A DNA stretch of 64,000 nucleotides. Origin: Bacteroidia bacterium. GTDB lineage: Bacteria > Bacteroidota > Bacteroidia > Bacteroidales > Azobacteroidaceae. The position numbers and the translations under genes were made by a program. Below, in pieces: positions 25,629 through 62,766 of this stretch (its first letter is position 1; every line of letters starts with the position of its first letter). The stretch covers positions 1 to 64,000 of the forward strand of contig BNTV01000013.1 in the NCBI GenBank assembly GCA_025996865.1. Direction: 5' to 3'. The notes under the pieces are model-generated. The model did no database searches, was not told the origin of the DNA, and saw only the letters and a list, made by a program, of their open reading frames with translations.

Positions 25629-25725
25629 TTGCTCTACCCCGGGCTGCGCTTCGCTTGCCGCGGGGTTACCCAAGTAGAAGACCTTACGGTCTTCCGGGTT
25701 CAGCACCTCAATTTAATATTTAGCC
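25629..25725. repeat. Palindrome-bounded repeat, copy A
   Basis: A 48-base middle (25629-25676), the palindrome GAAGACCTTACGGTCTTC (25677-25694) and a tail ending TTTAATATTTAGCC (25695-25725). Copy B at 46460-46577 has the same tail and palindrome, but the 48-base middle is in the opposite orientation with no mismatch. The rest of the gene-free stretch 25726-26122 shows only AT-rich sequence, a small hairpin (ACAGGCGC / GCGCCTGT) and the palindrome at 26007. Confidence 0.8.
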
Positions 25726-40656: not shown

Positions 40657-40688
40657 TTTGGAATATGCAACTAAAATAGTTACTTTTG
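40657..40688 (+). promoter_or_regulatory. Promoter of the hicAB pair
   Basis: TTTG (40657-40660), 20 bases, then TACTTTTG (40681-40688): a near-ideal Bacteroidota promoter 16 bases before the hicA ATG at 40704. Confidence 0.7.
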
Positions 40689-40703
40689 TGCAATTTATTA
40701 AAG

Positions 40704-40958
40704 ATGAGTACAAAAGACAAGCTGATAGAGCGGTTGAAAAAACAGCCAAAAGATTTTACTTTTGATGAAACTGTAAGATTGTTTATTTTATTGGGATTTA
40801 CTAAAAGCAATAAAGGCAAAACATCCGGCTCGCGTGTGATTTTTGAAAATGGAAACGACCAATTTTTGACACATAAACCTCATCCTGCAAGCATAATGAA
40901 AGAGGGAGCTGTAAAACAAATATTGAACTATCTTAAAGATAATAATTATATACAATAA
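40704..40958 (+). CDS. hicA: HicA-family toxin
   Basis: The 84-residue product has the HicA double-stranded-RNA-binding fold pattern (LIERLKKQPKDFTFDETVRLFILLGF, then GSRVIFENGNDQFLTHKPHP and KEGAVKQILNYLKDNNYI). HicA toxins cleave mRNA. The usual catalytic His of the GSH motif is an Arg here (SGSRVIF); related proteins in this order share that change, so activity is uncertain. One base separates it from the hicB start. Own promoter. Confidence 0.82.
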   Translation: MSTKDKLIERLKKQPKDFTFDETVRLFILLGFTKSNKGKTSGSRVIFENGNDQFLTHKPHPASIMKEGAVKQILNYLKDNNYIQ

Positions 40959-40959
40959 T

Positions 40960-41307
40960 ATGGAAAAGTTAGAATATAAAGGGTACTTGGGAAGTATTGA
41001 ATACAGTCCCAAAGACAACTATTTTTATGGAAGTGTTTTGGGAATACCCAAAAATTTGGCTATTACTTACGAAGGAGAAAATGCTACGGATTTGGTACTG
41101 GATTTTAAAAATGGAGTAGATTCTTATCTCGAATTTTGCAAAGAACGTGGCGCTAAACCTCATAAGTCCTATAATGGCGTGCTAAACATCCGAATACCTT
41201 CCGAAATACATTGTAAGATAGCCGTAATAGCAGAAAATTCGGGGAAAAGTATTAACTCATTTATTCGAGAGTCAATTGAAAGCAAACTGGAATCTGTAGA
41301 AGTATGA
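40960..41307 (+). CDS. hicB: HicB-family antitoxin
   Basis: The 115-residue product has the partially degraded RNase-H-like HicB fold (YKGYLGSIEYSPKDNYFYGSVLG, then a DFKNGVDSYLEFCKERG helix) and a C-terminal ribbon-helix-helix DNA-binding domain (LNIRIPSEIHCKIAVIAENSGKSINSFIRE, about residues 76-105). It should neutralise HicA and repress the shared promoter. The two genes form a complete type II module, AT-rich and set between rlmB and the cytochrome cluster. Confidence 0.85.
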   Translation: MEKLEYKGYLGSIEYSPKDNYFYGSVLGIPKNLAITYEGENATDLVLDFKNGVDSYLEFCKERGAKPHKSYNGVLNIRIPSEIHCKIAVIAENSGKSINSFIRESIESKLESVEV

Positions 41308-41559: not shown

Positions 41560-43221
41560 ATGAAATATTTTACATATAACTTTATTTTAAGAGAAAAATA
41601 CTACAAGAAAGAGATGGTGAAGAGAAATAAAAACAGGTCTTTTTACGAAAAGAAAAAAGAAAAAAGCGAAGGTAAAGGCAAAGGTAAAATTTATCTTCTA
41701 TTAGGTATTATTTTAGGCGCATGTATAGTTGTATCCATATATCAGGGAACGGTATATTTTTCGACAGACCAATCCTGTTCGATGTGTCATGTGCATCCGC
41801 ACGTAGAGGCGAGTTGGAAATTGTCGAAGCATTTCAGCAACGGTAGCGGAACGCGCGTGCATTGCGTGGATTGCCATCTCCCGCCCAAGAATAACACCCT
41901 GTCCTATTATTCGGCAAAATTTCAGTTAGGAATCAAAGATGCCTGGGGTTACCTGACGAAAGACAGCGCAGATTTTAATTGGGATTACAAATCGGAATTG
42001 GAACAAGCCGTAAAATATATTCCCAACGAATCGTGTAAAGATTGTCACCACGACCTTTTCCCGCGAGGAATTACAGATGATGCAATTACCGCTCACTTGT
42101 ATTACGAAGCCAATGAAGAAAAGCTGGATCTGCAATGTATCAGTTGCCATTTGGATGCCGGTCATTACAACCCGAATTACAAACACGAAAAATTATCGAT
42201 ACAGGACATTGCATCCCACCCGGTCGATACTTCAAAATATTTCAGGGAAGCTACTCCCATCACCGGATTTACGAATTTTACCGAACAAATACCGGGATCG
42301 GATTTATCATTTCAGATGATTGCGATTCCCGGCGGAACATTTCAGATGGGAAGCCCGGATACGGAACCATTCCGGAAAGACGATGAAGGTCCGGTTCACA
42401 GCGTGACTTTAAGTCCTTTCTATATGTCTGAAATAGAAGTTCCTTGGGATTTGTACTGGTGGTTTTACTCGAAAACGATGAGTGAAGGCCGCACACCGCC
42501 CGAAAACGTATTCGCCAACAACAGCCGCCCGGATGTAGATGCGGTTTCCGGCCCGACGCCGCCTTTCGGATTTCCGGATCAAGGTTGGGGTAGCGGACAA
42601 CGTCCGGCTATTACAATGACGCATTACGGAGCGGAAACGTTCTGTCAATGGTTGTCGCTCGTAACCGGTAAAAAATACCGTTTGCCGACGGAAGCCGAAT
42701 GGGAATACGCTGCCCGTGGCGGCACGGAAACTCCCTATTTCTTTGCCGGCGATCCCAAGAAATTCTCCAATGAAGGTTTTTGGCGTAAATTTTTCGAAGC
42801 CGACAAAGAACCGGTTTCTTCGCATGTAATTTATATAAACAATAGCAAAAACAAGACGCAATTGCCCAATGCCGTAAAAGCAAATCCATTCGGTTTGAAA
42901 AACATGTTAGGTAACGTAATGGAATATTGCGCCGATAAATATGATCCTCAGACTTACGGAAAAGCGGGTGCAAGCAGTACGGATCCGTTGATTATCGAAG
43001 GGAAAGAATATGTAGTTCGCGGCGGTAATTATGTTTCCGATGCGGCCGACATTCGTTGCGCCGCCCGCGATTACACGCGGCACGAGGCTTGGTTGAAAAC
43101 AGATCCGCAGCAACCGAAAAGTATTTGGTGGTATTCGGATATTCGCGGCATCGGTTTCCGGGTCGTTTGTGAAACACCGCCCCCCAACTCCCTGAAGGAG
43201 GAGTTGGAGCAGCACGATTGA
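41560..43221 (+). CDS. NrfH/NapC-type tetraheme cytochrome c fused to a SUMF1 (FGE-sulfatase-like) domain
   Basis: Residues 43-63 form one membrane anchor. Four CxxCH haem sites follow: CSMCH 73-77, CVDCH 102-106, CKDCH 159-163 and CISCH 193-197, with the NrfH-like SKH before haem 2. NrfH/NapC proteins take electrons from menaquinol. Residues about 250-545 are a SUMF1/EgtB/PvdO domain (GGTFQMGS, RLPTEAEWEYAARGG, GNVMEYC, VVRGGNY, GIGFRVV). The formylglycine-generating Cys pair is not seen, so another activity or a binding role is likely. The last 15 residues (PPPNSLKEELEQHD) and stop come from a palindromic element. An ATG at 41614 is an alternative start. Outside face of the inner membrane is expected. 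Confidence 0.88.
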   Translation: MKYFTYNFILREKYYKKEMVKRNKNRSFYEKKKEKSEGKGKGKIYLLLGIILGACIVVSIYQGTVYFSTDQSCSMCHVHPHVEASWKLSKHFSNGSGTRVHCVDCHLPPKNNTLSYYSAKFQLGIKDAWGYLTKDSADFNWDYKSELEQAVKYIPNESCKDCHHDLFPRGITDDAITAHLYYEANEEKLDLQCISCHLDAGHYNPNYKHEKLSIQDIASHPVDTSKYFREATPITGFTNFTEQIPGSDLSFQMIAIPGGTFQMGSPDTEPFRKDDEGPVHSVTLSPFYMSEIEVPWDLYWWFYSKTMSEGRTPPENVFANNSRPDVDAVSGPTPPFGFPDQGWGSGQRPAITMTHYGAETFCQWLSLVTGKKYRLPTEAEWEYAARGGTETPYFFAGDPKKFSNEGFWRKFFEADKEPVSSHVIYINNSKNKTQLPNAVKANPFGLKNMLGNVMEYCADKYDPQTYGKAGASSTDPLIIEGKEYVVRGGNYVSDAADIRCAARDYTRHEAWLKTDPQQPKSIWWYSDIRGIGFRVVCETPPPNSLKEELEQHD

Positions 43222-43263
43222 ACATTAGCTACGGCCAAGTCCCCTTTAGGGGATTTAGGAGTA
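43178..43263. mobile_element. Palindromic element at the end of the cytochrome fusion gene
   Basis: It has the same two-part structure as the prfC copy: left CAACTCCCTGAAGGAGGAGTTG and right CCCCTTTAGGGGATTTAGG. It supplies the last codons and stop of the upstream gene and fills most of the gap to the Gfo gene. Its left arm is mutated compensatorily (CTCC..GGAG instead of CCCC..GGGG), keeping the stem. Confidence 0.75.
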
Positions 43264-43288
43264 AATTAAATATTTAATATAAATACAA

Positions 43289-44707
43289 ATGGAAAACAAA
43301 AACAAAATCAGCAGAAGGTCATTTTTGAAAAATTCTGCTTTTGTCGGTGCTTTAGGCACGATGGGTGTAGGGAATGCGGCTTTAATCAGCTCGTGCAGTG
43401 ATAAAAAAGGGGAATCTGCACTTATTCCTCTGAAAGAACCGGGGACATATTATGTTCCTGATTTAGTGGACATAGCTGCCGACGGAAGAGCTTTGAAAGC
43501 CGGCATTATCGGTTGTGGCGGACGTGGTTCGGGCGCGGCATTTAACTTTTTGAATGCTGCTAACGGTGTTACTATCACCGCGTTGGGCGATACATTCAGC
43601 GATCGTTTGGAAGATTTGGCAAGCCAACTGAAAAGTAAAAAGAACATCGACATTCCCGCCGATAAAAAATTTACAGGCTTGGACGCCTATAAAAATGTGA
43701 TAGACAGTGATGTGGACGTCGTGATTGTTTGTACGCCGCCCAATTTCCGTCCGATTATTTTCCAATATGCGATTGAAAAAGGGAAACATGCATTCCTTGA
43801 AAAACCGATTTGTGTGGATTCCGTTGGTTACCGGACGATTATGGTTACCGCCAAACAAGCTGCCGCCAAAGGTTTAAGTGTTGTTACCGGCACACAGCGT
43901 CATCACCAGCGTTCTTATGTGGAATCGTACAAGCAGATCATGAACGGATTGATCGGGGAAATTACCGGAGGTACGGTTTATTGGAACGGCGGCATGTTGT
44001 GGTGCAATGAACGCCAATCCAAATGGTCGGATTGCGAATGGATGATTCGCGACTGGGTGAACTGGAAATGGTTGTCGGGCGACCATATCGTTGAACAACA
44101 TGTACACAACCTCGACGTATTTACTTGGTTTTCAGGCTTAAAACCTGTAAGTGCCGTCGGTTTCGGTTCTCGTCAACGCCGCCTTACGGGTGACCAGTTC
44201 GATAATTTCAGCATTGATTTTGAAATGGAAAACGGCGTTCATCTGCATAGTATGTGCCGGCAAATCAGCGGCTGCGCCAACAATGTCAGCGAATTTATAC
44301 AGGGCGCAAAAGGCTCCTGGAACAGCCAAACGATGGAAATCAAAGACCTGAAAGGCAATGTGTTGTGGAAATACGACTACGAAGCCGAGAAGGGAAACTT
44401 CAAGCAGACCGATCCCTACACTTTGGAACATGTCAACTGGATCAATCACATCCGTAGCGGAAAAGTCATTGATCAGGCTTCCGAAACGGCTGTTTCCAAT
44501 ATGGCAGCCATCATGGGACGCGAATCGGCTTATACCGGTCAAAAAATAACCTGGGACGAAATGACCGCTTCTTCATTGGATCTCTATCCGAAAGATATTG
44601 ACATTGAAAAGAAGATGAACTTTGAAGGATATGGTAATAACGTAGAATTCAAATTGCCGGAATATATTTCTATTCCAGGAAAACCACAAGGGAATCAAAA
44701 ACGGTAA
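43289..44707 (+). CDS. Tat-exported Gfo/Idh/MocA oxidoreductase (lipoprotein)
   Basis: The 472-residue protein starts with a twin-arginine signal (SRRSFLKNSAFVGALG) ending in a lipobox-like LISSC (Cys36), so it should be folded with its cofactor, exported and lipid-anchored. The NAD(P)-binding fold shows GIIGCGGRGSG (72-82) and EKP at 171-173; the substrate side has DHIVEQHVHNLDVFTWF with the usual H-x-x-x-D pattern. Family members oxidise or reduce sugars, often at C3, with a tightly held nicotinamide. It lies between the tetraheme fusion and a TIM-barrel gene, suggesting a joint pathway outside the inner membrane. Confidence 0.9.
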   Translation: MENKNKISRRSFLKNSAFVGALGTMGVGNAALISSCSDKKGESALIPLKEPGTYYVPDLVDIAADGRALKAGIIGCGGRGSGAAFNFLNAANGVTITALGDTFSDRLEDLASQLKSKKNIDIPADKKFTGLDAYKNVIDSDVDVVIVCTPPNFRPIIFQYAIEKGKHAFLEKPICVDSVGYRTIMVTAKQAAAKGLSVVTGTQRHHQRSYVESYKQIMNGLIGEITGGTVYWNGGMLWCNERQSKWSDCEWMIRDWVNWKWLSGDHIVEQHVHNLDVFTWFSGLKPVSAVGFGSRQRRLTGDQFDNFSIDFEMENGVHLHSMCRQISGCANNVSEFIQGAKGSWNSQTMEIKDLKGNVLWKYDYEAEKGNFKQTDPYTLEHVNWINHIRSGKVIDQASETAVSNMAAIMGRESAYTGQKITWDEMTASSLDLYPKDIDIEKKMNFEGYGNNVEFKLPEYISIPGKPQGNQKR

Positions 44708-44746
44708 AATTAATTACGAATTACAAATTACGAATTACGAAAAAAT
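44706..44746 (+). repeat. ACGAATTACAAATT-type short tandem repeat
   Basis: Imperfect units of ACGAATTAC / AAATTACG fill the 39-base gap between the Gfo and TIM-barrel genes. It resembles in kind the purine arrays of the suf operon. Confidence 0.55.
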
Positions 44747-45670
44747 ATGGAATTAAATAGAAGAAATTTTATAAAAACCACTTTGTCGGGAGCCGCGCTG
44801 GTTGCAGCAAGCAGCGGGCTTCCGGCTTGTGCTACATCGACTTCCAAAAAAGAAAAGGCGTCTTCGACAGGCGCTGTAGAACTGAAACTTTCCTTTCAGG
44901 AAGGAATCGCTCCGGGTAAAACTTTGGCGGAAAAGTTTGATTTGATGGAACAATTGGGCGTAGTAGGTTTTGAACCGGGCGGCGGCGGATTGGAAAACCG
45001 TGTGACGGAAATCAAAGACGCTTTGAAAGGCCGCAATATTAAAGTCAGTGCGATTTGCGCGGGATTCAAGGGATACGTTCTTTCTACCGAACAGGCCGTT
45101 CGCGATGAATTTTTCAGTACGATGAAAACGATTATCGCCGCAGCCGGGGAATTGGGTTCGACAGGCGTAATCCTGGTTCCGGCATTCAATGGTCAGAAAC
45201 CTTGTTTACCGCATACGCAGGAAACACGTAATTTTTTGTGTGAACAATTAGCGATTTTGGGCAGTTTTGCCGTTGAACACGGAACAACGATTATCCTCGA
45301 ACCGTTGAATCGCAGAGAAGCATTTTTCCTTCGCCAAGTAGCTGATGCTGCGTCGATTTGCCGCGATATTAATCATCCGGGCGTACGTTGTATGGGCGAT
45401 TTCTGGCACATGACAAGCGAAGAATCTTCCGATATGGGTGCATTTATTTCAGGTGGAAACTATTTGCAACACGTACACATTGCCAGCCGTAAACGACGGA
45501 GTATGCCCAGCGAAGACGGCGAAGCCGACAATTACGTAGAAGGTTTCAAAGCCTTGAAAATGCTGGCTTATGACAAATATGTCAGCTACGAATGCGGATG
45601 TCAGGGCGACCGGAATATCATTGTTCCCCAATCCGTCCAATTACTGAAAGAACAGTGGGCAAAAGCATAA
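44747..45670 (+). CDS. Tat-exported TIM-barrel sugar isomerase/epimerase-like protein (lipoprotein)
   Basis: The 307-residue product has a twin-arginine-like signal (NRRNFIKTTLSGAALVAA) and a lipobox (LPAC, Cys28). The AP_endonuc_2/xylose isomerase-type TIM barrel keeps the metal site: Glu185 (ILEPLNRRE), Asp218 and His221 (MGDFWHM), His244 (QHVHIASR) and Glu282 (YECGC). Cytoplasmic relatives are sugar or keto-acid epimerases; exported relatives beside Gfo/Idh/MocA proteins in other Bacteroidota act as lyases or epimerases on 3-keto sugars. Its gene overlaps the resB start by 16 bases. Confidence 0.88.
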   Translation: MELNRRNFIKTTLSGAALVAASSGLPACATSTSKKEKASSTGAVELKLSFQEGIAPGKTLAEKFDLMEQLGVVGFEPGGGGLENRVTEIKDALKGRNIKVSAICAGFKGYVLSTEQAVRDEFFSTMKTIIAAAGELGSTGVILVPAFNGQKPCLPHTQETRNFLCEQLAILGSFAVEHGTTIILEPLNRREAFFLRQVADAASICRDINHPGVRCMGDFWHMTSEESSDMGAFISGGNYLQHVHIASRKRRSMPSEDGEADNYVEGFKALKMLAYDKYVSYECGCQGDRNIIVPQSVQLLKEQWAKA

Positions 45671-46470
45671 TCTCCTCTTACAAAACGACTGTTGCCTTAC
45701 TTTTGGTTTATGCTTTCAGTATGGGAACAGCTACTTTTGTCGAGAAATATGGGGGAACGGAGGCAGCCAAAGTGTTTGTTTACCATTCCCCTCTTTTTTT
45801 TGTGCTGCAATTTTTCCTGGTTATTAATTTTGTTGCAAGTTCGTTGCAGCATCAACTTTTTCAGCGAGGCAAATACGGATTTCTCGCCATTCATTTTGCT
45901 TTGATTGTGATTCTTGCCGGTGCGTTGACCACCCATATTTTCGGAAAAGAGGGAACGGTTCATCTTCGCGAAGGCGAGAGTCTTGATTATATGTCTGCCG
46001 AAACAAATCGAGGCGAAAGCCGGCAGCAATTGCCTTTCCGTTTGGAACTCATAAAATTTACGATGGAACGTTATCCGGGTTCTTCCAGTCCTTCCGGTTT
46101 TGAAAGTTTGATTCGTATCCACGCCGGCAATCAATCTTTTGAAAGAAAAATTTCCATGAACAATGTATTTGATTATAAAGGATACCGTTTTTTTCAGGCT
46201 TCTTTCGATAGCGATGAAAGGGGAACAATTCTTTCGGTCAACCGGGATGCGGCGGGACGAAACATTACTTATACCGGTTATGTACTCTTGGTAATCGGTT
46301 TTATATTAAGTTTTTTGGATAAAAATTCGCGGTTCAGGCAGTTGGGGCGGATTATGAGAAATTCTACGTCAGATGAAGATCTTTATCAATATCTGACAGA
46401 AAACAAGCCGGAGGGAAATGTGTTTTTGAATGAAATCGAACAAAAAAATTTTGAAGACGGAAGACCGTAA
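45655..46470 (+). CDS. resB: ResB-like cytochrome c biogenesis protein
   Basis: ResB/Ccs1 works with CcsA to carry haem across the membrane and attach it to CxxCH motifs. The 271-residue product has membrane segments at about residues 10-25 (VALLLVYAFSMGTATF), 42-60 and 73-92 (FLAIHFALIVILAGALTTHI), then a periplasmic part with GYRFFQASFDSDERGTILSVNRD, and a last segment (YVLLVIGFILSFL). I use the in-frame GTG at 45655, which overlaps the TIM-barrel gene and avoids a meaningless extension. The last three codons and the stop lie in repeat copy B. It is cut off from ccsA by an inserted gene. Confidence 0.82.
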   Translation: MGKSIISSYKTTVALLLVYAFSMGTATFVEKYGGTEAAKVFVYHSPLFFVLQFFLVINFVASSLQHQLFQRGKYGFLAIHFALIVILAGALTTHIFGKEGTVHLREGESLDYMSAETNRGESRQQLPFRLELIKFTMERYPGSSSPSGFESLIRIHAGNQSFERKISMNNVFDYKGYRFFQASFDSDERGTILSVNRDAAGRNITYTGYVLLVIGFILSFLDKNSRFRQLGRIMRNSTSDEDLYQYLTENKPEGNVFLNEIEQKNFEDGRP

Positions 46471-46577
46471 GGTCTTCTACTTGGGTAACCCCGCGGCAAG
46501 CGAAGCGCAGCCCGGGGTAGAGCAAATAGAAGACCTTACGGTCTTCCGGGTTCAGCACCTCAATTTAATATTTAGCC
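46460..46577. repeat. Palindrome-bounded repeat, copy B
   Basis: Left palindrome GAAGACCGTAAGGTCTTC (46460-46477), 48-base middle (46478-46525), right palindrome GAAGACCTTACGGTCTTC (46529-46546) and tail to 46577. The middle is the exact reverse complement of the middle of copy A (25629-25676), while palindrome and tail run the same way in both. Confidence 0.8.
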
Positions 46578-46655
46578 CATTTCATTTTATTTAAAATCCA
46601 AGTACAAAGATAGGACTATTTTCTCAGCATGATACCTTTTTCCAAAAAAAGTGAT

Positions 46656-46663
46656 TATATTTG
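46656..46663 (+). promoter_or_regulatory. -7 element of the AlbA_2 gene
   Basis: TATATTTG is a full TAnnTTTG match 21 bases before the ATG at 46685. The inserted gene therefore seems to have its own promoter. Confidence 0.5.
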
Positions 46664-46684
46664 CATCAAATTCAAACAAGCAAA

Positions 46685-47932
46685 ATGGACGATATATTGC
46701 TGTTGCAGGAAAGAGTAAAAAACACCATTGGTCTTGGCGAAAGCCATTTCAGGGAATTTAAAATCGCTTGGGAAGGAAAGCCAAGCAATAAAAAACCCCG
46801 GCAGACCAAGAAAATTTGTAAAGATATTGGCGAAGCCTTGGTGGCCTTTGCCAATGCCGACGGTGGTGAACTCCTTATTGGAGTGGAAGACGAGGGAACA
46901 ATCACTGGTGTCCCGCATTGGGAAGAAGAAATCAACAAGATGCTTGCTGCCGTAAAAACAAATATTTATGAAAATCAGGAATTGCCGCTGACTGCTTCAA
47001 CCAAACTCAATATCAACAATTTAACTGTTCTATATTTTTCGGTAAACAAAGGAACTACACAAATTTATCAACTTCCCGACGGAAGATGTGTCCGGCGAAA
47101 AGACAAAGCTACAATGCCCGCTTCCGTTAATGAGATAAATTTTGAACGTCAGGAAATTCGTTCCCGGGAATACGACAGCCGGTTTGTAGATGGCGCTTTT
47201 GTTACCGATTTGGATACATCACTTTTGCAAAGTGTAGCGGACTCGTACATTAAAGGATTAAGCGTTGAATTGTTTCTACAGCAGACCGGTCTTGCCGTAT
47301 ATGGCACGAACGGACTGCGCCTGAAAAGAGCGGCGCTATTGCTGTTTGCCAAAACGAATGAAATCGCGCGCTGGCACTCCAAATGTCAAATCAGGTACTT
47401 GAAAGTGCTGGGTGATGAACTGAAATCGGGTGAAGATTATAATGTGATAAGTGATGAAAGTATTCAGGGAAATATTTTTGATTTGTGTTTTAAGGCATGG
47501 GACGGCTTGCGACCCTATCTGTCCTATAAAACAGAATTTAGTGATGACGCTCGCTTCGAACAAAAATATATTTATCCGGAAGCCGCTTGTAGAGAGGCTA
47601 TTATAAATGCAATCGCACACAGGGACTACTCCATTCAAAACGGTATTGAAATTTATATTTTTAATGACAAAATAGAAATAAAAAGTCCCGGCGCTTTGTT
47701 ATCTACCATTACAATAAAAAATCTCCGTGAATTGGAAGGTGCGCACGAATCAAAAAATCCGTTAATTACCAGGATATTAAGAGAAAACAAGCTGATGAGG
47801 GAAATTGGTGAAGGCATGAAACGAATATTTAACTTGATGAATCCGGCCGAATTCAATTCTCCCCTGTTGTATTCCAACGGCATGTGGTTTAAAGTTACGT
47901 TGAGTAAAAAAAGTGTAGCACAAATTTCTTAA
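46685..47932 (+). CDS. AlbA_2-domain (Schlafen-like) ATP-binding protein
   Basis: The 415-residue product has an N-terminal AlbA_2 domain (ALVAFANADGGELLIGVEDEG, in two blocks, about residues 50-75) and a C-terminal GHKL-like ATPase part (EAACREAIINAIAHRDYS, then GEGMKRIFNLM). Such proteins are frequent in Bacteroidota accessory regions and are often called putative transcriptional regulators or DNA-binding proteins; a role in defence has been suggested for some. It sits with its own promoter between resB and ccsA, with repeat copy B on the left, so it looks like an inserted cargo gene. Confidence 0.8.
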   Translation: MDDILLLQERVKNTIGLGESHFREFKIAWEGKPSNKKPRQTKKICKDIGEALVAFANADGGELLIGVEDEGTITGVPHWEEEINKMLAAVKTNIYENQELPLTASTKLNINNLTVLYFSVNKGTTQIYQLPDGRCVRRKDKATMPASVNEINFERQEIRSREYDSRFVDGAFVTDLDTSLLQSVADSYIKGLSVELFLQQTGLAVYGTNGLRLKRAALLLFAKTNEIARWHSKCQIRYLKVLGDELKSGEDYNVISDESIQGNIFDLCFKAWDGLRPYLSYKTEFSDDARFEQKYIYPEAACREAIINAIAHRDYSIQNGIEIYIFNDKIEIKSPGALLSTITIKNLRELEGAHESKNPLITRILRENKLMREIGEGMKRIFNLMNPAEFNSPLLYSNGMWFKVTLSKKSVAQIS

Positions 47933-47936
47933 GAGT

Positions 47937-49487
47937 ATGATTATAATATCAACAGTCATTGTACTTTGCCTCACCTTATTTCCGGTGACATCCGCCAATG
48001 CGCAAAACGCATCAAACGCAGATATTCTCCTCCAAAAATACGTCATCAGCACTGAACACGCCGCCCGTTTCGGCGAGTTACCGATGCAATCCTTGGACGG
48101 CCGCATCGAACCGGTCAATACTTTCTCATCGGAAGCGCTTCGTAAACTGCATCATTCCGACAAAATCGGCAATCTCAATTCCGACCAATTCCTGCTGAGC
48201 TTGCTCGCTATGCCCGAAATGTGGATGCGGGTTCCGTTGATTACACTGAAAAACGAACAAATCGCAAAGAAATACGGTCTCAATTCCCGTCAATGCGCTT
48301 ATATAGAGTTATTTCAGGATGACGATATTTACAAATTACAAGATGATTTGCAAACGGTTTATTCCAAACCACCTTCCGAACGCAGTCGTTTCGACAAAGA
48401 TTTGATCAAATTGGATGAACAAGTCAATGTTTTTTACCGGTTAGTGAATGATCAAATGCTGAATATTTTTCCCGAACCGGATGCTCCGAATCATAAATGG
48501 TCTGCATCCAATGAGTTATTGAACATATACCTGTTTTACGTACAAAAGGGTTTGAAGACCGGCGATTGGATGCAGGCCGAACAAAGTTTGGAAGCCATCC
48601 GCGATTATCAGAAAAAAAATACGACTTTACAAATTGATAATCAGAAATTAAAAGCCGAATTACTGTATAACCGGTTGACTATTTTCCAACAATGTAAAAA
48701 AATCTATTTGATTTCGGGCGGGATATTGCTTGTGCTTGCTTTTATTTCTTTGTTCAAGAAAAACAAAGGATTGCAAACCGGAATTATCTCATTAGTTATC
48801 TTGATTTTAATGGCTTCGCTTTATCATTTATCCGGTATCGGTTTACGTTGGTACATAGCAGGTTATGCTCCTTGGAGCAATGCCTACGAGACGATGGTTT
48901 ACGTAGCTTTCATCACGATTGTCGCCGGTGTGTTTTTTATCCGGCAAAGTTCGATTACTTTTGCTTTGGCAAGTTTGTTCGGGGGAGTTATCCTGTTCGT
49001 TTCAGGCTTGAATTGGATGGATCCGCAAATCAGTCCTTTGGTACCGGTGTTGAAATCGCCTTGGCTGATGATTCATGTAGCTGTGATTGTGGCGGCTTAT
49101 GGATTTTTCGGAATCGGCTTTTTGTTGGGATTGACCCATTTAGGTTTAGGTTTTATTATGAAAAAAAATCCGGAATCTCCTGCAAATAAGCTGACCATTA
49201 TCAACGAGATGGCTTTAATAGTGGGTTTGACTTTGATGACCATCGGCACATTTGTCGGCGCCGTTTGGGCAAATGAATCCTGGGGACGTTATTGGGGTTG
49301 GGATCCGAAAGAGACTTGGGCGTTGGTTACCATTGTCGTTTACACCGTCGTGTTGCATTTGCGTTTGGTGAAAAAATGGAATCGCCCGGTGATTTTCAAT
49401 GCTGCGTCTGTTCTTGCTTTTGCAAGTGTTTTGATGACTTATTTCGGGGTTAACTATTTATTGAGCGGGATGCATTCGTATGGATGA
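47937..49487 (+). CDS. ccsA: Cytochrome c biogenesis protein CcsA with N-terminal extension
   Basis: The C-terminal part (about residues 250-510) is the CcsA haem channel, with multiple membrane helices and the WWD-type haem motif (VWANESWGRYWGWDPKETWAL). The N-terminal 250 residues have a hydrophobic first segment and a periplasmic part (ELPMQSLDGRIEPVNTFSSEALRKL) that in many Bacteroidota lies inside a single ResB-CcsA fusion. The gene thus looks like the second half of such a fusion, now a separate frame starting 4 bases after the AlbA_2 gene. It serves the tetraheme protein upstream. Confidence 0.88.
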   Translation: MIIISTVIVLCLTLFPVTSANAQNASNADILLQKYVISTEHAARFGELPMQSLDGRIEPVNTFSSEALRKLHHSDKIGNLNSDQFLLSLLAMPEMWMRVPLITLKNEQIAKKYGLNSRQCAYIELFQDDDIYKLQDDLQTVYSKPPSERSRFDKDLIKLDEQVNVFYRLVNDQMLNIFPEPDAPNHKWSASNELLNIYLFYVQKGLKTGDWMQAEQSLEAIRDYQKKNTTLQIDNQKLKAELLYNRLTIFQQCKKIYLISGGILLVLAFISLFKKNKGLQTGIISLVILILMASLYHLSGIGLRWYIAGYAPWSNAYETMVYVAFITIVAGVFFIRQSSITFALASLFGGVILFVSGLNWMDPQISPLVPVLKSPWLMIHVAVIVAAYGFFGIGFLLGLTHLGLGFIMKKNPESPANKLTIINEMALIVGLTLMTIGTFVGAVWANESWGRYWGWDPKETWALVTIVVYTVVLHLRLVKKWNRPVIFNAASVLAFASVLMTYFGVNYLLSGMHSYG

Positions 49488-49500
49488 TATGTGATAGCAG

Positions 49501-50043
49501 ATGACAATGACATTTAACGAATTTTACATACACTGGTATTCGCGCATGAAATCTTTTGCGTGTGAATACGTTGGCTGCGAAGAAGATGCCGAAAATATTG
49601 TACAGGACGTCTTTTTAGAACTCTATGAACAATATACAACGCTGTCGAATCGTGTAAATATCGTTGCCTATATATTTACCACCGTCAAAAACCGCAGTAT
49701 CGACCATTTGCGGCGTAAAGTTATGGCGCAGAAATCCGCCGAGCATTTACAGGAAGAATACCTCCTCACTTTGCAAATGAAGCTCAACTCATTGGAAATC
49801 CTTGACAATGAACTTTTCAAGGATAATGACGTAGAACAAGCCGTTACAAAAGCCTTGAACGCCCTCCCCGAACGTTGCCGCACCATTCTTGTCAAGCACA
49901 AGATTGAAGGGCAGAGACAAAAAGATATCGCCAAAGAATTAGGCGTCACTCCCAAAACCGTAGAAAACCAGTTAACCATCGCCTACAAAAAACTTCGCGA
50001 GGAACTGAAAGATTACCACCCGTTATTTCTTCTCTTTTTTTGA
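49501..50043 (+). CDS. ECF-type RNA polymerase sigma factor of the PUL
   Basis: The 180-residue protein has sigma region 2 (ENIVQDVFLELYEQYTTL, YIFTTVKNRSIDHLRR) and region 4 (ALPERCRTILVKHKIEGQRQKDIAKELGVTPKTVENQL, the latter as the HTH). In Bacteroidota, such factors are held by a FecR-type anti-sigma and drive a susC/susD pair, as laid out here. The start may be the ATG at 49501 or the one six bases later. Confidence 0.92.
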   Translation: MTMTFNEFYIHWYSRMKSFACEYVGCEEDAENIVQDVFLELYEQYTTLSNRVNIVAYIFTTVKNRSIDHLRRKVMAQKSAEHLQEEYLLTLQMKLNSLEILDNELFKDNDVEQAVTKALNALPERCRTILVKHKIEGQRQKDIAKELGVTPKTVENQLTIAYKKLREELKDYHPLFLLFF

Positions 50044-50125
50044 TAAACAAAAAAAAATGATTTTCTTTTGGGGGATTTTTGACGCTCATTCGTTTACCGA
50101 ATAAGAACGAACAAAAATCGTATTT

Positions 50126-51094
50126 ATGGATAGAGTTATTGCTTATTTTAATCAGGAGTTATCTGAAAAAGAAAGAATCGAATTGCTTCGGGAAGCGGCA
50201 GTCAACCCGGAATTGCAGAAAACTTTTGCCGGGGTTCAAAACTCCCTCGCCATTCTTTCATTCTCACCCGAAGCCATAGATACTCAAGCCGGAAAGCAAG
50301 CCCTGCATCGTTTGATGCAACGGAGAAACAAAAAACGATGGATTCGTTATTCGCTCAGGGCAGTTGCGAGCGCCGCCGCTATTGCCTTATTGGTTATTGT
50401 TACGCGCGCTGTTGTCCTGTCAACGGTATCTCCGGCAGAAACACAGCTGACTGCCCAGCAGGAATTATACGTGCCGGCCGGTCAACGCGCCCGCCTCACA
50501 CTTCCCGACGGCTCTACCGTCTGGCTCAATGCAGGCTCTACCCTATTGTATCCTTCCGCTTTTGGCAAGGAACGAAACGTTTGCTTGAAAGGAGAAGGCT
50601 TCTTCGACGTCGCTAAAAATCCGGACAAGCCCTTTATCGTCTCTACCGATTCCATAGACATTGTGGCGTTGGGCACTCAATTCAATGTTTACAGCTATGC
50701 CAAAGCCGGATATGTGAATACCACATTGATAGAAGGCAGCGTGAAAGTCTTTAGACCGGGAGAAAAAACCGGAGGAACTTTGCTCCAACCCAACCAGCAA
50801 GCCATTTACAAAAATGGGAAATTCAGCGTGAAAACATCCGCCGATACAGACAAACTGATGTGGAAAGAAGGCATTTACACGTTCAGGGAAGAAAATTTGG
50901 ACACCATTATTAAGGATTTGGAATTATACTACGATGTGAAGATTATTGTCCGCAACCCGAAAATACTTCAATACCGTTATACGGGAAAATTCCGCCAACG
51001 CGACGGGGTAATGGAAATCCTCCGCATCATTCAAAAGATACATGGATTCAAGATTTATAAAGATGAAAACCAGAATATAATCACACTAAGTTAA
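50126..51094 (+). CDS. FecR-family anti-sigma factor
   Basis: The 322-residue protein has a cytoplasmic N-terminal part that binds sigma, one membrane helix (about residues 72-98, ALLVIVTRAVVL), and a periplasmic FecR domain (PAGQRARLTLPDGSTVWLNAGS, then GEGFFDVAKNPDKPFIV, and the DUF4974 end YDVKIIVRNPKI...YTGKF). It should receive a signal from the STN domain of the SusC-like receptor and release the sigma factor. 82 bases separate it from the sigma gene; that gap has a GGGGGATTTTTGACGCTCATT stretch. Confidence 0.92.
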   Translation: MDRVIAYFNQELSEKERIELLREAAVNPELQKTFAGVQNSLAILSFSPEAIDTQAGKQALHRLMQRRNKKRWIRYSLRAVASAAAIALLVIVTRAVVLSTVSPAETQLTAQQELYVPAGQRARLTLPDGSTVWLNAGSTLLYPSAFGKERNVCLKGEGFFDVAKNPDKPFIVSTDSIDIVALGTQFNVYSYAKAGYVNTTLIEGSVKVFRPGEKTGGTLLQPNQQAIYKNGKFSVKTSADTDKLMWKEGIYTFREENLDTIIKDLELYYDVKIIVRNPKILQYRYTGKFRQRDGVMEILRIIQKIHGFKIYKDENQNIITLS

Positions 51095-51256
51095 AAAAAA
51101 CGAATATTCACCTCATCAAAAATATTGCCTATGGAACAACTACAAGAATGAAAAACATGAAAAACCGGCAGACGCTGACACATCCGCCGGTCGGTGTAAG
51201 CAAACACCCCGATTGATTGTAAAAAAAATTTAGTATTTACTTAACGAGATAAAGAT
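51095..51256 (+). promoter_or_regulatory. Leader region of the SusC gene
   Basis: The 162-base gap holds a small stem (ACCGGC 51164-51169 with GCCGGT 51186-51191) and a 22-codon frame (51149-51217). The sigma-dependent promoter of the PUL is expected here, but I cannot point to a motif that I trust. Confidence 0.35.
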
Positions 51257-54200
51257 ATGAAATTAATTTTATTTAGAATTATGAAAATCTCTTTTTTATT
51301 ACTTTTTGTGTGCGTTTTTCAAATGCTTGCCACAAACGGTAATGCACAAAACGCAGTAGTTAACCTCTCTTCCAATCAACTGACCATGGCTCAATTGATT
51401 GAAGAGATTGAGAAGCAGACCGACTATTTAGTCGTGTACAGCAACAGCGAAATGAATACCTCGAAAAATCTGACGCTGAAGAACAAGTCAGCGAAAGTAT
51501 CCGACATTTTGCAGGAAGTATTTGGCAATGAGGAGATGAAGTATGAGTTTGAAAACAACTACATCATCTTGTCGAAGCGGGCAATCACCCTTAATAATCA
51601 ACAAGATCCCGGCAAACGAATCACCGGAACGGTGATTGATGATAAAGGTGAGCCGATTATCGGCGCAAGCATTTCCGAAAAAGGAACCCGAAATGGTATC
51701 GCTACCAATTTGGAGGGCAAGTTTAGTTTGCAAGTCAGTCCCGACGCAATTCTTGTCATTACTTACATCGGATATAGTGCGCAAGAGATAACCATAGGAA
51801 ACCAAACCAATTTGAATATCACGCTAATCGAAAACAGTCTGGCTTTGGATGAAGTAGTTGTGGTCGGTTACGGAAGCATCGAAAAAAGGAGAGTGACCAG
51901 TGCTATCGCCAGTGTAAAATCAGAGAACTTCATCAAAGTACCTACTCCCGATGCTGCACAGATGATTCGTGGGCAGGTGGCTGGTTTAGCAGTTATTTCT
52001 CCGGATGCCAATCCTACTTCGACTTCCCAGTTATTGTTGCGCGGTATCACCACCTTACGATCAAGCACCAGCCCATTGATACTTATTGACGGTATTCCGG
52101 GCGATTTAAGAACCGTATCACCTGATGAGATTGAGCAAATAGATGTATTGAAAGATGGTTCTGCTGCTGCAATCTACGGTAGTCGCGGAACGAATGGCGT
52201 GATCATCATCACCACCAAGAATGCGAAAGGCGAAGTACCGACAACGGTAGAAGTAAATACTTACTTGTCCACACAGCAAATATCCCGTAAATTGCCGTTT
52301 CTGACTTTAGATCAATACCTCGATAAGGTAGCGCAAGGCTTACCCGGCGCACAGGATAACGGAGGTAGAGTCAATTGGTTGGACGAAGTATTACAGACCC
52401 CGTTGACACAAGTATATAATATCAGTTTGCGAGGTGGGAGCAGAACTACGAACTACACTGCCGGTTTTGATTATCGTGACATGAACGGTATCATGAAACG
52501 TTCCAATAATCGGATGATATATCCGCGTATAGAAGTAACTCACCGAATGTTTGATAATAAACTGAGAATCAATGCAGGTCTGAATGGATACCAGCAAAAA
52601 TATTTTGATGGAGCAAATGGAGGAAGTTTTAATAATGCCGTGTACCGTAATGCTTTAACATTTAGTCCGGCTGATCCGATTAAAGATGCCAATGGCGTAT
52701 GGTATCAAAGTCCGGGTAAAACAGATTATTCCAATCCTTTAGCGCTTTTGATGGAAGTAGAGGGAGAAGATAAGGCTACCAATCTAAGAATGTATGCTAA
52801 CGTTACGTTCACACCCATTGCAGGCTTGGACATCAAATATTTAGTATCGAGTAATACCTATAATTTAACGCAGGGTTACTATGAAACACAAAAGCACTTG
52901 TCCACCGTCCGAGATAATAGAAATGGGTTTGCGGCACTGGGTACGACACGTACGGCGGATGACTTGAGCGAATTAACGGCTTCATACAATAAGACCTTAT
53001 TTAACGATCATACTTTTACCGTATTGGGAGGATATAGTTGGATGCGAAATAATCATCAGAATTATTGGATAAATAACTGGGATTTCCCTTCAGATGATTA
53101 TACCTATAATTCGATACAATCGGGACAGGCTTTGGCCAACGGACGTGCGAGTATAGCTTCTGCTCAGAGAGAAAACAAACTAATCGGCTATTTCGGACGT
53201 TTGAATTACAACTACAAAGGGAAATACATGCTGTCTGCCAGTGTACGTTACGAAGGCTCCTCCAAATTCGGAGTTGACCACAAATGGGGTACTTTTCCTG
53301 CTGTATCTGTAGGCTGGAATCTTAAGGGAGAAGATTTTCTGAAAGATGTAAGTTTTTTAAGTAACTTGAAACTCAGAGGCGGTTTTGGTATTACCGGTAC
53401 AGAACCTTTGGATCCTTACATGTCGCTTAATACATTAAGCTTTGGCGACTATGCAAATATGAACGGCACATGGGTTAAGTCTATCCGTCCCAATTCAAAT
53501 TCTAACGCTGATTTGCGTTGGGAGAAAAAAGAAGAAACCAATATAGGATTGGATTTTGGTTTCTTTGACGAACGGCTCTCCGGAAGTATTGATTATTACA
53601 ACCGCGATACCAAGGATTTGATATGGAATTACACTGTACCTTCGCCTCCTTATTTGTTTTCCAGCATGGTAGCAAATGCCGGTTCGATGCGAAACAGGGG
53701 AATTGAAGTTACTCTGCAAGCCATTCCTGTACAGACAAAAGATTTTCAATGGGTAACCAATGCCAATTATTCAACAAATAAGAACACCTTGCTTTCCTTG
53801 TCTAATGAGAAATTTATTTCCAGCGGATATTCCGACCAGGGCAGTACAGGCGAACCGATTCAGCAAACAACCCATCGGATAAAGGAAGGACAACCTATTG
53901 GTAATTTCTATGGCTTTAAAAGTGTGGATATTGATGAAAATGGATTCTGGATTATCGAAGGAGAGGATGGAACCCCCAAACCCATATTGCAACAGCAACC
54001 TACTGATAAAAAGGTGATTGGAAATGGTTTGCCTAAACATTATCTGAACTGGAATAATTCTATTTCGTATAAAAACTTCGATCTGGGAGTTACTATGCGT
54101 GGCGCTTTTAGGTTCCAAATCTTGAATATGCCCGAGCTGCAATATGCTTATCCTATCATGCTTACCAGAGGGAATGTCCTGCAAAAAGCATTCGACAATG

Positions 54201-54496
54201 TCTATGGAAAAAGACCGCTGGCAGTGAATCAGGAATTACAGTACGTAAGCTATTATATCCAAGACGGGGATTATTGGAAAATAGACCAGCTTACATTTGG
54301 TTATACGCTGAATGTGAAGAGCAAATGGATTGAACGTTTTCGTATTTATGGTTCGATTTCAAATCTGGCTGTTCTTACCGGATACAGTGGCATTGATCCG
54401 GAAGTTGGTATTAGCGGACTGGCTCCCGGAGTGGATGACAAAAACAGATATCCGGCAGCCCGTACCTTTACTCTTGGAGCTTCTTTCAAATTTTAA
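51257..54496 (+). CDS. SusC-type TonB-dependent receptor with STN signalling domain
   Basis: The 1079-residue protein imports an oligosaccharide across the outer membrane. Order of parts: signal peptide (to NAQ near residue 31), STN domain (about 40-112, LIEEIEKQTDYLVVYSNSEM), carboxypeptidase-like beta-sandwich (about 121-200), TonB box region with LDEVVVVGYGS, plug (MIRGQVAGLAVISPDANP, PLILIDGIPGDL, GSAAAIYGSRGTNGVIIITT) and a 22-strand barrel ending in FTLGASFKF. The STN domain fits regulation by the adjacent sigma/FecR pair. It is paired with the SusD gene 13 bases downstream. Confidence 0.96.
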   Translation: MKLILFRIMKISFLLLFVCVFQMLATNGNAQNAVVNLSSNQLTMAQLIEEIEKQTDYLVVYSNSEMNTSKNLTLKNKSAKVSDILQEVFGNEEMKYEFENNYIILSKRAITLNNQQDPGKRITGTVIDDKGEPIIGASISEKGTRNGIATNLEGKFSLQVSPDAILVITYIGYSAQEITIGNQTNLNITLIENSLALDEVVVVGYGSIEKRRVTSAIASVKSENFIKVPTPDAAQMIRGQVAGLAVISPDANPTSTSQLLLRGITTLRSSTSPLILIDGIPGDLRTVSPDEIEQIDVLKDGSAAAIYGSRGTNGVIIITTKNAKGEVPTTVEVNTYLSTQQISRKLPFLTLDQYLDKVAQGLPGAQDNGGRVNWLDEVLQTPLTQVYNISLRGGSRTTNYTAGFDYRDMNGIMKRSNNRMIYPRIEVTHRMFDNKLRINAGLNGYQQKYFDGANGGSFNNAVYRNALTFSPADPIKDANGVWYQSPGKTDYSNPLALLMEVEGEDKATNLRMYANVTFTPIAGLDIKYLVSSNTYNLTQGYYETQKHLSTVRDNRNGFAALGTTRTADDLSELTASYNKTLFNDHTFTVLGGYSWMRNNHQNYWINNWDFPSDDYTYNSIQSGQALANGRASIASAQRENKLIGYFGRLNYNYKGKYMLSASVRYEGSSKFGVDHKWGTFPAVSVGWNLKGEDFLKDVSFLSNLKLRGGFGITGTEPLDPYMSLNTLSFGDYANMNGTWVKSIRPNSNSNADLRWEKKEETNIGLDFGFFDERLSGSIDYYNRDTKDLIWNYTVPSPPYLFSSMVANAGSMRNRGIEVTLQAIPVQTKDFQWVTNANYSTNKNTLLSLSNEKFISSGYSDQGSTGEPIQQTTHRIKEGQPIGNFYGFKSVDIDENGFWIIEGEDGTPKPILQQQPTDKKVIGNGLPKHYLNWNNSISYKNFDLGVTMRGAFRFQILNMPELQYAYPIMLTRGNVLQKAFDNVYGKRPLAVNQELQYVSYYIQDGDYWKIDQLTFGYTLNVKSKWIERFRIYGSISNLAVLTGYSGIDPEVGISGLAPGVDDKNRYPAARTFTLGASFKF

Positions 54497-54509
54497 AACA
54501 TTAAGTAGT

Positions 54510-56123
54510 ATGAAAACATTAAGTAAAATATTTATAATCGCGTGTTTAATTGGCTGTACAGTCAGTTGTAGTAATGATCTGAATGAAAAAGTCTTTTCAT
54601 CTGTTACAGAACAAAGCTACAGTTATACGGCAAAAGATTTTTATCCTGTTATCGGGAGTGTATATCCTCCATTGAGGAACATTTGCAGTCATGGTGGATA
54701 CTTCGCACAAGAGATAACAGCCGATATTATAGTGATGCCTCCCCAATCAGGCGGTTGGGATGATGGAGGGGTATACCGGCGTATGCACTATCATTTATGG
54801 AATTCGGAACAAGCGCATGTCTCCGCTATGTGGAATTGGTTCTATCAGGGAGCTTTGCTTTGTAATAATGTGATAGAACAAATTGAAAAAGACATCGTAC
54901 CTGCTCCCTCTCCTGTAGAAAAAGAACAGTGTTTGGCAGAAGTAAGAGCCGTCCGTGCCTACTATTACTGGATGATTTGTGATAACTATGGCGATGCCCC
55001 GCTTATAACCTCCAAATCAAGCGATCTCCCTGAAAAGAGTTCCCGTCAGGATATTTATAAATTCATTGTCGATGAATTGACGGAGGTAATACCCAAGTTA
55101 AACGAAGAACAAGGAGGTAGAATGTACGGACGAATTAACAAATGGGCTGGCAAAGCACTGTTGGCTAATGTCTATCTGAATGCGGAAATATATACAGGAC
55201 AGCCTCATTGGACAGAATGTATCACTCAGTGTGACGACATTATCAATAGTGGTCAGTGTGCTTTGGAAGCCGATTACAATGCATCGTTCAGGGCACATGG
55301 GGTAGAATCTTCCAAGGAGGTTTTATTTACAGTTCCTTTTGATAAAACGTTGGCTGGAGGAAACTATATCCACATGTATTCATGGCATGCCGAGTTGAAA
55401 AAGAAATATCTGACGGAAGCTACTCCTTGGGGAGCCGGTGCTGCTATGGGTATCACTCAATTTATTGACACGTATGATTCTGACGACAGCCGTTTGGAGG
55501 ATTCTTGGTTGATGGGACAACAGTTTGGGGCTGACGGCTCTGTGTTGGTAGGCTCATACGACCAGAGTGGTGAACCTATTATCTTTACGAAAGAAGTCCA
55601 AAGCGGCAATTATAGAAAAGAAAATGAAGGATATAGAATGAATAAGTACGAAATAGAGGCAGGATGTCCAAATAATTCCACCACCGATATCCCCTTGTTT
55701 CGCTATGCACAGGTATTGTTGATGAAAGCGGAATGTTTGTTACGTACACAATCACCTGGAGCCGGTTCTTTGGTGTCGCAAGTAAGGCAGCGGGCATTTA
55801 AGAGCGACCCTTCGAAAGCAACCGTTACGGATGCGCAATTGCAAGAAAATTCTGCTTACCAGTACGGATATGTGGAAAACTATGTGATTGTAGATCCCGG
55901 TAATCAGGATGCGATCCAATATGGCAGATTCTTGGATGAGTTAGGATGGGAATTTGCTTGGGAAATGACTCGCAGAAGGGATATTATCCGGTTTGGAGTT
56001 TTCACAAAGAAAAGTTGGATGTCACATAAACCGCAAGGTGATTACCGAACTGTCTTCCCAATTCCAGAAAGTGCGATTACTTCCAATCCGAATTTAGTTC
56101 AAAATCCGAATTATGTGAAATAA
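54510..56123 (+). CDS. SusD-type glycan-binding lipoprotein (RagB/SusD family)
   Basis: The 537-residue protein is a surface lipoprotein (signal ACLIGCTVSC, lipidated at Cys16 or Cys20) that caps the SusC barrel and binds glycan. Family marks are the tetratricopeptide-like helices with EVRAVRAYYYWMICDNYGDAPL, WAGKALLANVYLNAE, FRYAQVLLMKAECLLR and the end ELGWEFAWEMTRRRDIIRFG, FPIPESAITSNPNLVQNPNY. I take the ATG at 54510; the frame is open upstream inside susC without meaning. Confidence 0.95.
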   Translation: MKTLSKIFIIACLIGCTVSCSNDLNEKVFSSVTEQSYSYTAKDFYPVIGSVYPPLRNICSHGGYFAQEITADIIVMPPQSGGWDDGGVYRRMHYHLWNSEQAHVSAMWNWFYQGALLCNNVIEQIEKDIVPAPSPVEKEQCLAEVRAVRAYYYWMICDNYGDAPLITSKSSDLPEKSSRQDIYKFIVDELTEVIPKLNEEQGGRMYGRINKWAGKALLANVYLNAEIYTGQPHWTECITQCDDIINSGQCALEADYNASFRAHGVESSKEVLFTVPFDKTLAGGNYIHMYSWHAELKKKYLTEATPWGAGAAMGITQFIDTYDSDDSRLEDSWLMGQQFGADGSVLVGSYDQSGEPIIFTKEVQSGNYRKENEGYRMNKYEIEAGCPNNSTTDIPLFRYAQVLLMKAECLLRTQSPGAGSLVSQVRQRAFKSDPSKATVTDAQLQENSAYQYGYVENYVIVDPGNQDAIQYGRFLDELGWEFAWEMTRRRDIIRFGVFTKKSWMSHKPQGDYRTVFPIPESAITSNPNLVQNPNYVK

Positions 56124-56145
56124 AAGATATAACAAACATTCAAAT

Positions 56146-57744: not shown

Positions 57745-57789
57745 ATAAATGATAAATAACAAAGAACAAAGAAATAATAATAAAAAAAG

Positions 57790-59655: not shown

Positions 59656-59676
59656 AAACCTGAATGGAATAATCAA

Positions 59677-61731: not shown

Positions 61732-61754
61732 TCAAAAATGAATAATATTACAAA

Positions 61755-62759: not shown

Positions 62760-62766
62760 TCCGGAT

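Follow-up and report, generated by a model that had tools for sequence, protein, structure and literature searches.

What does a cytochrome of the NapC/NrfH type do when it is joined in one chain to a SUMF1 domain and stands beside an exported sugar enzyme? The question is raised by a gene cluster in a stretch of 64,000 nucleotides (the window) from a Bacteroidia bacterium of the Azobacteroidaceae, order Bacteroidales (assembly GCA_025996865.1, contig BNTV01000013.1, positions 1 to 64,000; genome 88% complete). The first gene encodes the fusion, and genes for a Gfo/Idh/MocA oxidoreductase (Gfo), a TIM-barrel enzyme of the AP_endonuc_2 family, a ResB-like and a CcsA-like protein follow. A preliminary description of this DNA took the cluster for a redox system on the frame of an nrf operon. 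By comparative evidence the system is real and widespread, but its conserved unit is two genes, the fusion and the Gfo, smaller and older than the nrf-like cluster. As to what the two genes do, our preferred reading, held with somewhat better than even confidence, is that they make one exported respiratory sugar dehydrogenase, which would pass electrons from a glycoside, probably from its C3, through the SUMF1 domain and the haems to menaquinone. The two genes occur almost only together in the genomes sampled, which suggests an as yet undescribed route by which these bacteria could take electrons from extracellular sugars. An open-literature search, with most subscription papers outside it, found no paper on the fusion or on a SUMF1–Gfo system.

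The pairing was sought with alignments of the fusion and of the neighbouring Gfo enzymes in a sample of 392 genomes from the order. The fusion was found in 55 genomes and the Gfo subfamily in 57 (scoring was limited to the four best Gfo candidates of each genome), and all 55 fusion genomes carry both. Genome G367, which has the Gfo and no full fusion, has a 5'-truncated SUMF1 frame at a contig start, right before the Gfo. In genome G046, a partner-type Gfo of 607 bits lies on a 17-kb contig without the fusion (L227). The two genes are also neighbours: the partner Gfo lies within six genes of the fusion at 69 of 72 loci when counted by open reading frames (ORFs) and is found at 71 of 74 by tblastn. 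The two loci omitted from the ORF-based counts, L158 and L174, had no fusion ORF called, and by tblastn both have fusion and Gfo. Fourteen of the loci (L010–L023) derive from a scan of named genomes, and L014 and L146 are apparently the same contig (75,296 bases each). The partner Gfo subfamily is sharply bounded. Its matches in the order score from 239 to 790 bits, with 384 as the lowest genome best, and the best match in 60 genomes without the fusion is 73 bits. A tree made by quick search on a subset of 71 rows, with a long-branch warning, places the partner group away from four further Gfo enzymes that occur at these loci.

The motifs predict that the partner Gfo is exported as a lipoprotein. 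The window's enzyme has a twin-arginine translocation (Tat) motif, SRRSFLK, and a lipobox Cys36; among full-length partner Gfos above 500 bits the Tat motif is present in 71/71 and the lipobox in 70/71, and among Gfos above 300 bits at loci with SUMF1 alone the figures are 27/29 and 23/29. The claims of the preliminary description that the Gfo is exported and that it forms one system with the fusion are supported. The findings that it had named as refuting, a fusion mostly without its enzymes or enzymes without Tat export, were looked for, and for the Gfo the outcome does not refute it. The enzyme matches PF01408 with 46.3 bits, and G75 and G77 of the GxG motif and E171-K172-P173 of the EKP motif are invariant in 30/30 aligned Gfos. 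Its best solved relatives are inositol dehydrogenases; DgpA, sugar 3-ketoreductase and glucuronide-3-dehydrogenase come further down.

The fusion was described at the outset as four CxxCH sites and a C-terminal SUMF1 domain in one chain, and the profiles agree: PF03264 matches residues 44–206 with 79.7 bits (cut-off 24.1) and PF03781 residues 252–505 with 130.7 bits. It is the only PF03264 match in the window's genome. CxxCH sites 2–4, H91, H179, H202 and K120 are kept in 73/73 fusions, and the first CxxCH and H79 in all 72 whose sequence covers that part. D127, which aligns with Asp89 in the NrfH structure 2j7a, is kept in 72/73. The assignment as a quinone-type cytochrome is supported. Like NrfH, NapC and CymA, all of PF03264, it has a single membrane helix, four CxxCH sites and the conserved Lys and Asp. 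It differs from them in the SUMF1 domain, in a haem 1 site that reads CxxCHxH and not CxxCHxM (72/72 fusions with sequence there), in scoring 62.5 bits against the NrfH equivalog TIGR03153, under its cut-off of 134.2, and in that no NrfA was found (PF02335, 0 matches in the 88% complete genome), as the preliminary description had also noted. In NrfH, the haem-1 ligand Met49 and Asp89 are reported to be essential for menaquinol oxidation (PMC10654088). With His at the Met position, haem 1 may be tuned downward, and this would fit delivery of electrons to quinone.

The SUMF1–Gfo pair recurs without any tetrahaem domain. The scan of named genomes, from which 80 loci were retained, yielded 14 full fusions together with many relatives that have SUMF1 alone, among others in Acidobacteriota, Planctomycetota, Verrucomicrobiota, Flavobacteriaceae, Chitinophagaceae and Sphingobacteriaceae. 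At 38 of the 54 SUMF1-only loci (L024–L077), a Gfo of the same group (>100 bits) is near the SUMF1 gene; a stricter ORF-based count over 51 of them gave 30 with an adjacent Gfo, 12 without and 9 undetermined. An independent sample found single-domain SUMF1 in 82/242 genomes of another order, and of the 80 loci taken in, 60 have a Gfo above 300 bits within 3 kb of the SUMF1 gene. Seven SUMF1-only genomes in a phylum-wide sample have the Gfo in four cases and apbE in two, and twelve more distant SUMF1 loci (L078–L089) have neither (0/12 for each). Because the pairs recur without the cytochrome, an exported SUMF1 protein and a Tat-exported Gfo seem to make up the old core. In a tree of 73 SUMF1 domains (a quick search on a subset), all 31 tetrahaem fusions group in a single clade with SH-aLRT support of 99, which makes one acquisition of the tetrahaem part probable. 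Verrucomicrobiota have PSCyt1 haem domains in its place, fused to SUMF1 (L031, L043, L046 and L047). These four fall elsewhere in the tree than the tetrahaem fusions; at L046, the PSCyt1–SUMF1 gene precedes the Gfo, and 116 of the best 120 database matches listed for its SUMF1 part carry PF07635. That SUMF1 is joined to two unrelated cytochromes speaks for an exchange of electrons between this domain and haems. Beside these, three Maribacter loci (L034, L039 and L067) have SUMF1 followed by a YceI gene and no Gfo, with apbE next in L039 and L067, and SUMF1 may have other partners besides the Gfo.

The preferred mechanism would run as follows. The Gfo would take up NAD(P) in the cytoplasm and leave it through Tat in its folded state. 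Outside the cytoplasmic membrane, where it would be held as a lipoprotein, it would oxidise a sugar or glycoside at one hydroxyl, most likely that at C3 of a glucoside, giving the ketone. Its bound reduced cofactor, presumably NADH, would be re-oxidised through the SUMF1 domain docked on it, and the electrons would pass over the four haems to menaquinone at the NrfH-like site. The neighbouring TIM-barrel enzyme would isomerise the product, and elsewhere 3-keto-disaccharide hydrolases would cleave it.

The substrate guess comes from relatives and neighbours. The window's AP_endonuc_2 enzyme scores 480 bits to 3kws and 92.5 bits to the 3-keto-D-glucoside 4-epimerase 6wn6. Within six genes of the 72 fusions, AP_endonuc_2 occurs at 35 loci, another Gfo at 23, ThuA at 10 and a 3-keto-disaccharide hydrolase (PF06439) at one; at L120 such a hydrolase follows the fusion–Gfo pair. 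SusC/D are also among the sugar-related neighbours. The TIM-barrel enzyme, counted as part of the system in the preliminary description, is thus a frequent companion and not a universal one. Its description as a Tat lipoprotein holds for the Tat signal (NRRNFIK in the window, and a motif in 21/21 close relatives) and less well for the lipid anchor: the window's enzyme has a lipobox Cys28, and a lipobox-like Cys is found in 13/21 relatives. The window's genome has two more Gfos of the partner subfamily, away from the fusion (L229 and L230, on contigs C165 and C12). The second Gfo of the genome is accompanied by two PF06439 genes, an AP_endonuc_2 gene and a sugar transporter, and the third stands beside an AP_endonuc_2 gene. 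One fusion may serve all three dehydrogenases of this genome, or all paralogues in genomes with several. Because of the Gfo and isomerase relatives and the PF06439 and AP_endonuc_2 neighbours, oxidation of glycosides at C3 with electrons to menaquinone is our best guess; the 3-keto-sugar setting proposed earlier is favoured by these neighbours and weakened by the rarity of PF06439 beside the fusion.

Several observations count against the preferred reading. The Met ligand of NrfH haem 1 is replaced by His in every fusion that could be read there. To our knowledge, direct transfer of a hydride from NADH to haem has no precedent, so that a converter is needed, and none was identified. The window's Gfo scores 31.1 bits against NF058561, the family of the glycoside dehydrogenase BT_2158 (cut-off 750), and with PF06439 near only 1/72 fusions the substrate class rests on few neighbours. 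The partner Gfo is not within six genes at 3/72 fusion loci (one at a contig end), at 16/54 SUMF1-only loci no Gfo was found (some at contig ends), and 20/80 single-domain loci of the other order lack a Gfo above 300 bits within the stretch. Five other genomes of the window's genus (G083, G169, G295, G343 and G386) are without the fusion. These five, of 1.0–3.1 Mb vs 5.4 Mb, are also without the Gfo subfamily, and the patchy distribution in the genus is perhaps a matter of gain or loss.

The converter might be sought in the SUMF1 domain itself. In the predicted structure of the fusion, a fold search, which bears on the SUMF1 part and hardly probes the NrfH-type part, places this domain closest to PvdO; formylglycine-generating enzyme (FGE) also shares the fold. 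The active-site Cys pair of FGE is absent from the window's domain, and in 195 aligned SUMF1 domains the three commonest residues at those columns do not include Cys. With the copper-binding pair missing, the reading as an FGE is rejected. PvdO is an exported protein with a redox role, as a periplasmic dihydropyoverdine dehydrogenase, and it has the fold and likewise no FGE-type Cys pair. The window's protein falls outside the PvdO equivalog NF051459, and its system differs from PvdO in the Gfo partner, the fused cytochrome and a signature of its own, T/S333 with DPQxPKSxW. The strictly conserved Thr/Ser at 333 lies in a motif that resembles the target of the flavin transferase ApbE. We put forward, tentatively and at rather less than even confidence, that the domain is a new covalent flavoprotein: ApbE would place flavin mononucleotide (FMN) on Thr/Ser333, and the flavin would turn the two-electron hydride of the exported, NAD-bound Gfo into single electrons for the haems. 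On this view, an ancient SUMF1-FMN/Gfo couple would have been connected on two occasions to different cytochromes, of the NapC/NrfH type in anaerobic Bacteroidales and of the PSCyt1 type in Verrucomicrobiota. If true, this would be a general route for NAD-dependent sugar enzymes to work outside the cytoplasm.

The evidence on this flavin is mixed. With ApbE-flavinylated extracytosolic carriers, the system shares the possible Thr/Ser acceptor motif and, in its SUMF1 relatives, apbE neighbours: apbE is within 2.5 kb at 19/54 single-domain loci and within 4 kb at 10/80, nine of these ten stemming from two genera. For the ApbE profile, 13 proteins from these same loci were used, of which only those of L030 and L051 were compared with Pfam. 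The motif D-x-x-[ST]-G-A-[ST] is not matched by the window's DAVSGPT and is canonical in 17/73 fusions and 4/42 single-domain SUMF1 proteins; where apbE-bearing loci have a readable motif, Pro and not the canonical Ala precedes the Thr/Ser in 14/14 and 10/10 cases of two sets. No apbE gene adjoins the fusion gene at any of the 74 fusion loci. The window's genome has one PF02424 (ApbE) gene, on contig C39, and ApbE is not enriched in fusion genomes (52/55 vs 24/25 others). Genome G315 (99% complete) has a canonical motif and no ApbE match. The structure model has a predicted local distance difference test score of 78.8, with a low-confidence motif loop (blocks of 70 and 52) in which Thr333 is not placed. 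Other targets of ApbE were considered and rejected: the motif pattern matched one Gfo among the loci scanned (L057), and no called ORF at the 19 apbE-bearing loci, five of them without an available SUMF1 row, has a canonical motif. The words SUMF1, sulfatase and Gfo are absent from the text searched of the flavinylation papers.

Four other explanations have to be set against the respiratory dehydrogenase. Electrons could flow the opposite way, from menaquinol over the haems and SUMF1 to a Gfo that reduces keto-sugars outside the cell as an electron sink. The NrfH and NapC relatives do draw electrons from quinol, the fusions retain K120 and D127 of the quinol site, and Gfo enzymes are reversible. 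Menaquinol is, however, a weak donor: ketone/alcohol couples usually lie below the menaquinone potential, and electron transfer from a secondary alcohol to menaquinone is downhill and the reverse uphill. The His at haem 1 also speaks against reversal, as do the keto-sugar isomerases and, at few loci, hydrolases nearby, which would consume 3-keto products; we judge it unlikely. Hardly more probable, and if anything a shade less so, is that SUMF1 does the catalysis, as a periplasmic oxidoreductase of the PvdO kind that takes the substrate or product of the Gfo and feeds the cytochrome, the Gfo then being a pathway neighbour and no redox partner. The fold would fit, but there is no sign of another substrate, and a pairing that keeps to one narrow Gfo subfamily in four or more phyla is tighter than expected of pathway neighbours.

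The domain family and the strict pairing with one protein family could also point to SUMF1 as an FGE-like modifier of the Gfo or another exported protein, with the haems replacing oxygen as acceptor. The Cys pair on which such chemistry depends in FGE is absent here and Cys is uncommon at its columns, making this quite improbable. That the cluster is a chance assembly or a decayed nrf operon, as the NrfH-like domain with ResB and CcsA close by might suggest, can scarcely be credited in view of the co-occurrence (55/55), the adjacency (69/72), the cytochrome-free SUMF1–Gfo pairs and the TIGR03153 score below its cut-off.

Relatives of the haem-attachment genes ResB/CcsA were found at 1 of the 74 fusion loci (L015), with profiles built from two sequences each and a tblastn limit of 1e-8, which distant homologues may escape. 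No PF01578 match other than the window's CcsA reaches E <= 1e-20 in this genome, again read at 88% completeness; PF01578 is found in 54/55 fusion genomes and also in 21/25 others. Since it is the only such match and ResB/CcsA accompany so few fusions, this CcsA more likely serves haem attachment in the cell at large, outside the module, and the ResB is probably general too. The proposal of the preliminary description that the cluster has haem-attachment genes of its own is not supported. The nrf-operon frame is rejected as well: neither nrfA nor ResB/CcsA accompanies the fusion, and the SUMF1–Gfo pair occurs without any cytochrome in several phyla.

Exported oxidation of glycosides at C3 into a respiratory chain is carried out by the FAD-dependent glucoside 3-dehydrogenase with its cytochrome c subunit. 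That enzyme differs from the present system in being a GMC flavoenzyme with a hitch-hiker subunit, unrelated to Gfo or SUMF1. Exported Gfo/Idh glycoside enzymes are thought to keep their NAD bound, and we know of no route for its re-oxidation outside the cytoplasm; for BT_2158 and BT_2159 of Bacteroides, we know of no dedicated cytochrome. BT2158 is a characterised periplasmic glycoside 3-dehydrogenase, and BT_2158 and BT_2159 (NF058561 and NF058563) are, like the window's enzyme, exported Gfo/Idh/MocA enzymes of glycoside breakdown (PMC11300592). They belong to another Gfo subfamily. The window's Gfo is ruled out of the BT_2158 family by score and has 15.6 bits against NF058563 (cut-off 650), and its genome has a separate BT_2158 family member of 828.6 bits. 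A haem conduit tied to one Gfo subfamily would be a testable answer to NAD re-oxidation outside the cytoplasm. It would connect glycan chemistry with anaerobic respiration and assign a role to a SUMF1 subfamily whose database names go no further than SUMF1/EgtB/PvdO family or formylglycine-generating enzyme.

The features of the locus are collected in Table 1. The genes lie where the preliminary description had placed them, apart from one gene that it missed between ResB and CcsA.

Table 1. Coordinates of the fusion gene, its functional sites and the genes that follow it in the window.
Feature	Position	Strand	Remark
Fusion protein: membrane-anchored tetrahaem NapC/NrfH-type domain and SUMF1 (FGE-fold) domain	41560..43221	+	553 aa
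Alternative start codon of the fusion gene	41614	+	
PF03264 cytochrome part, membrane helix included	41689..42177	+	
Haem site 1, CSMCH, then V-H79	41776..41790	+	His where NrfH has Met49
Haem site 2, CVDCH	41863..41877	+	
K120 and D127	41917..41940	+	aligned to Lys and Asp89 of D. vulgaris NrfH (quinol site)
Haem site 3, CKDCH	42034..42048	+	
Haem site 4, CISCH	42136..42150	+	
SUMF1 (PF03781) domain	42313..43074	+	fold closest to PvdO; without FGE Cys pair
DAVSGPT, residues 327-333 of the fusion	42538..42558	+	resembles ApbE motif, Pro for Ala
Gfo/Idh/MocA oxidoreductase, partner subfamily; predicted Tat-exported lipoprotein	43289..44707	+	
AP_endonuc_2 sugar isomerase/epimerase, TIM-barrel; predicted Tat-exported	44747..45670	+	
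ResB-like cytochrome c maturation protein	45658..46470	+	mechanical ORF start 45592
SLFN_AlbA_2/HATPase_c_4 gene between ResB and CcsA	46661-47932	+	
CcsA-like haem attachment protein	47937..49487	+	

The start of the ResB-like gene is an in-frame GTG that overlaps the end of the AP_endonuc_2 gene. The ResB–CcsA block is interrupted by the SLFN_AlbA_2/HATPase_c_4 gene, whose protein has no tblastn match at the 74 fusion loci. It matches PADLOC profiles, pAgo with 84.7 bits, probably through a shared domain. The window has three copies of a 20-base palindromic element, GAAGACCGTAAGGTCTTCTA, within 46460–46546 and at 25675–25694; two of them make an inverted pair, which begins at the end of the ResB gene and continues beyond it. 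Directly 5' of the fusion gene is a HicA/HicB toxin–antitoxin pair (40686–41307). After CcsA, from 49501 to 63999, come genes for an ECF sigma factor, FecR, SusC, a SusD-like lipoprotein, an MGH1-like glycoside hydrolase and GH127, together with glutaminase-A-like, URO-D-like and sugar-porter-like genes. Some of these calls come from Pfam, those of SusC, SusD and the porter being judged by eye, and the region looks like a separate polysaccharide locus.

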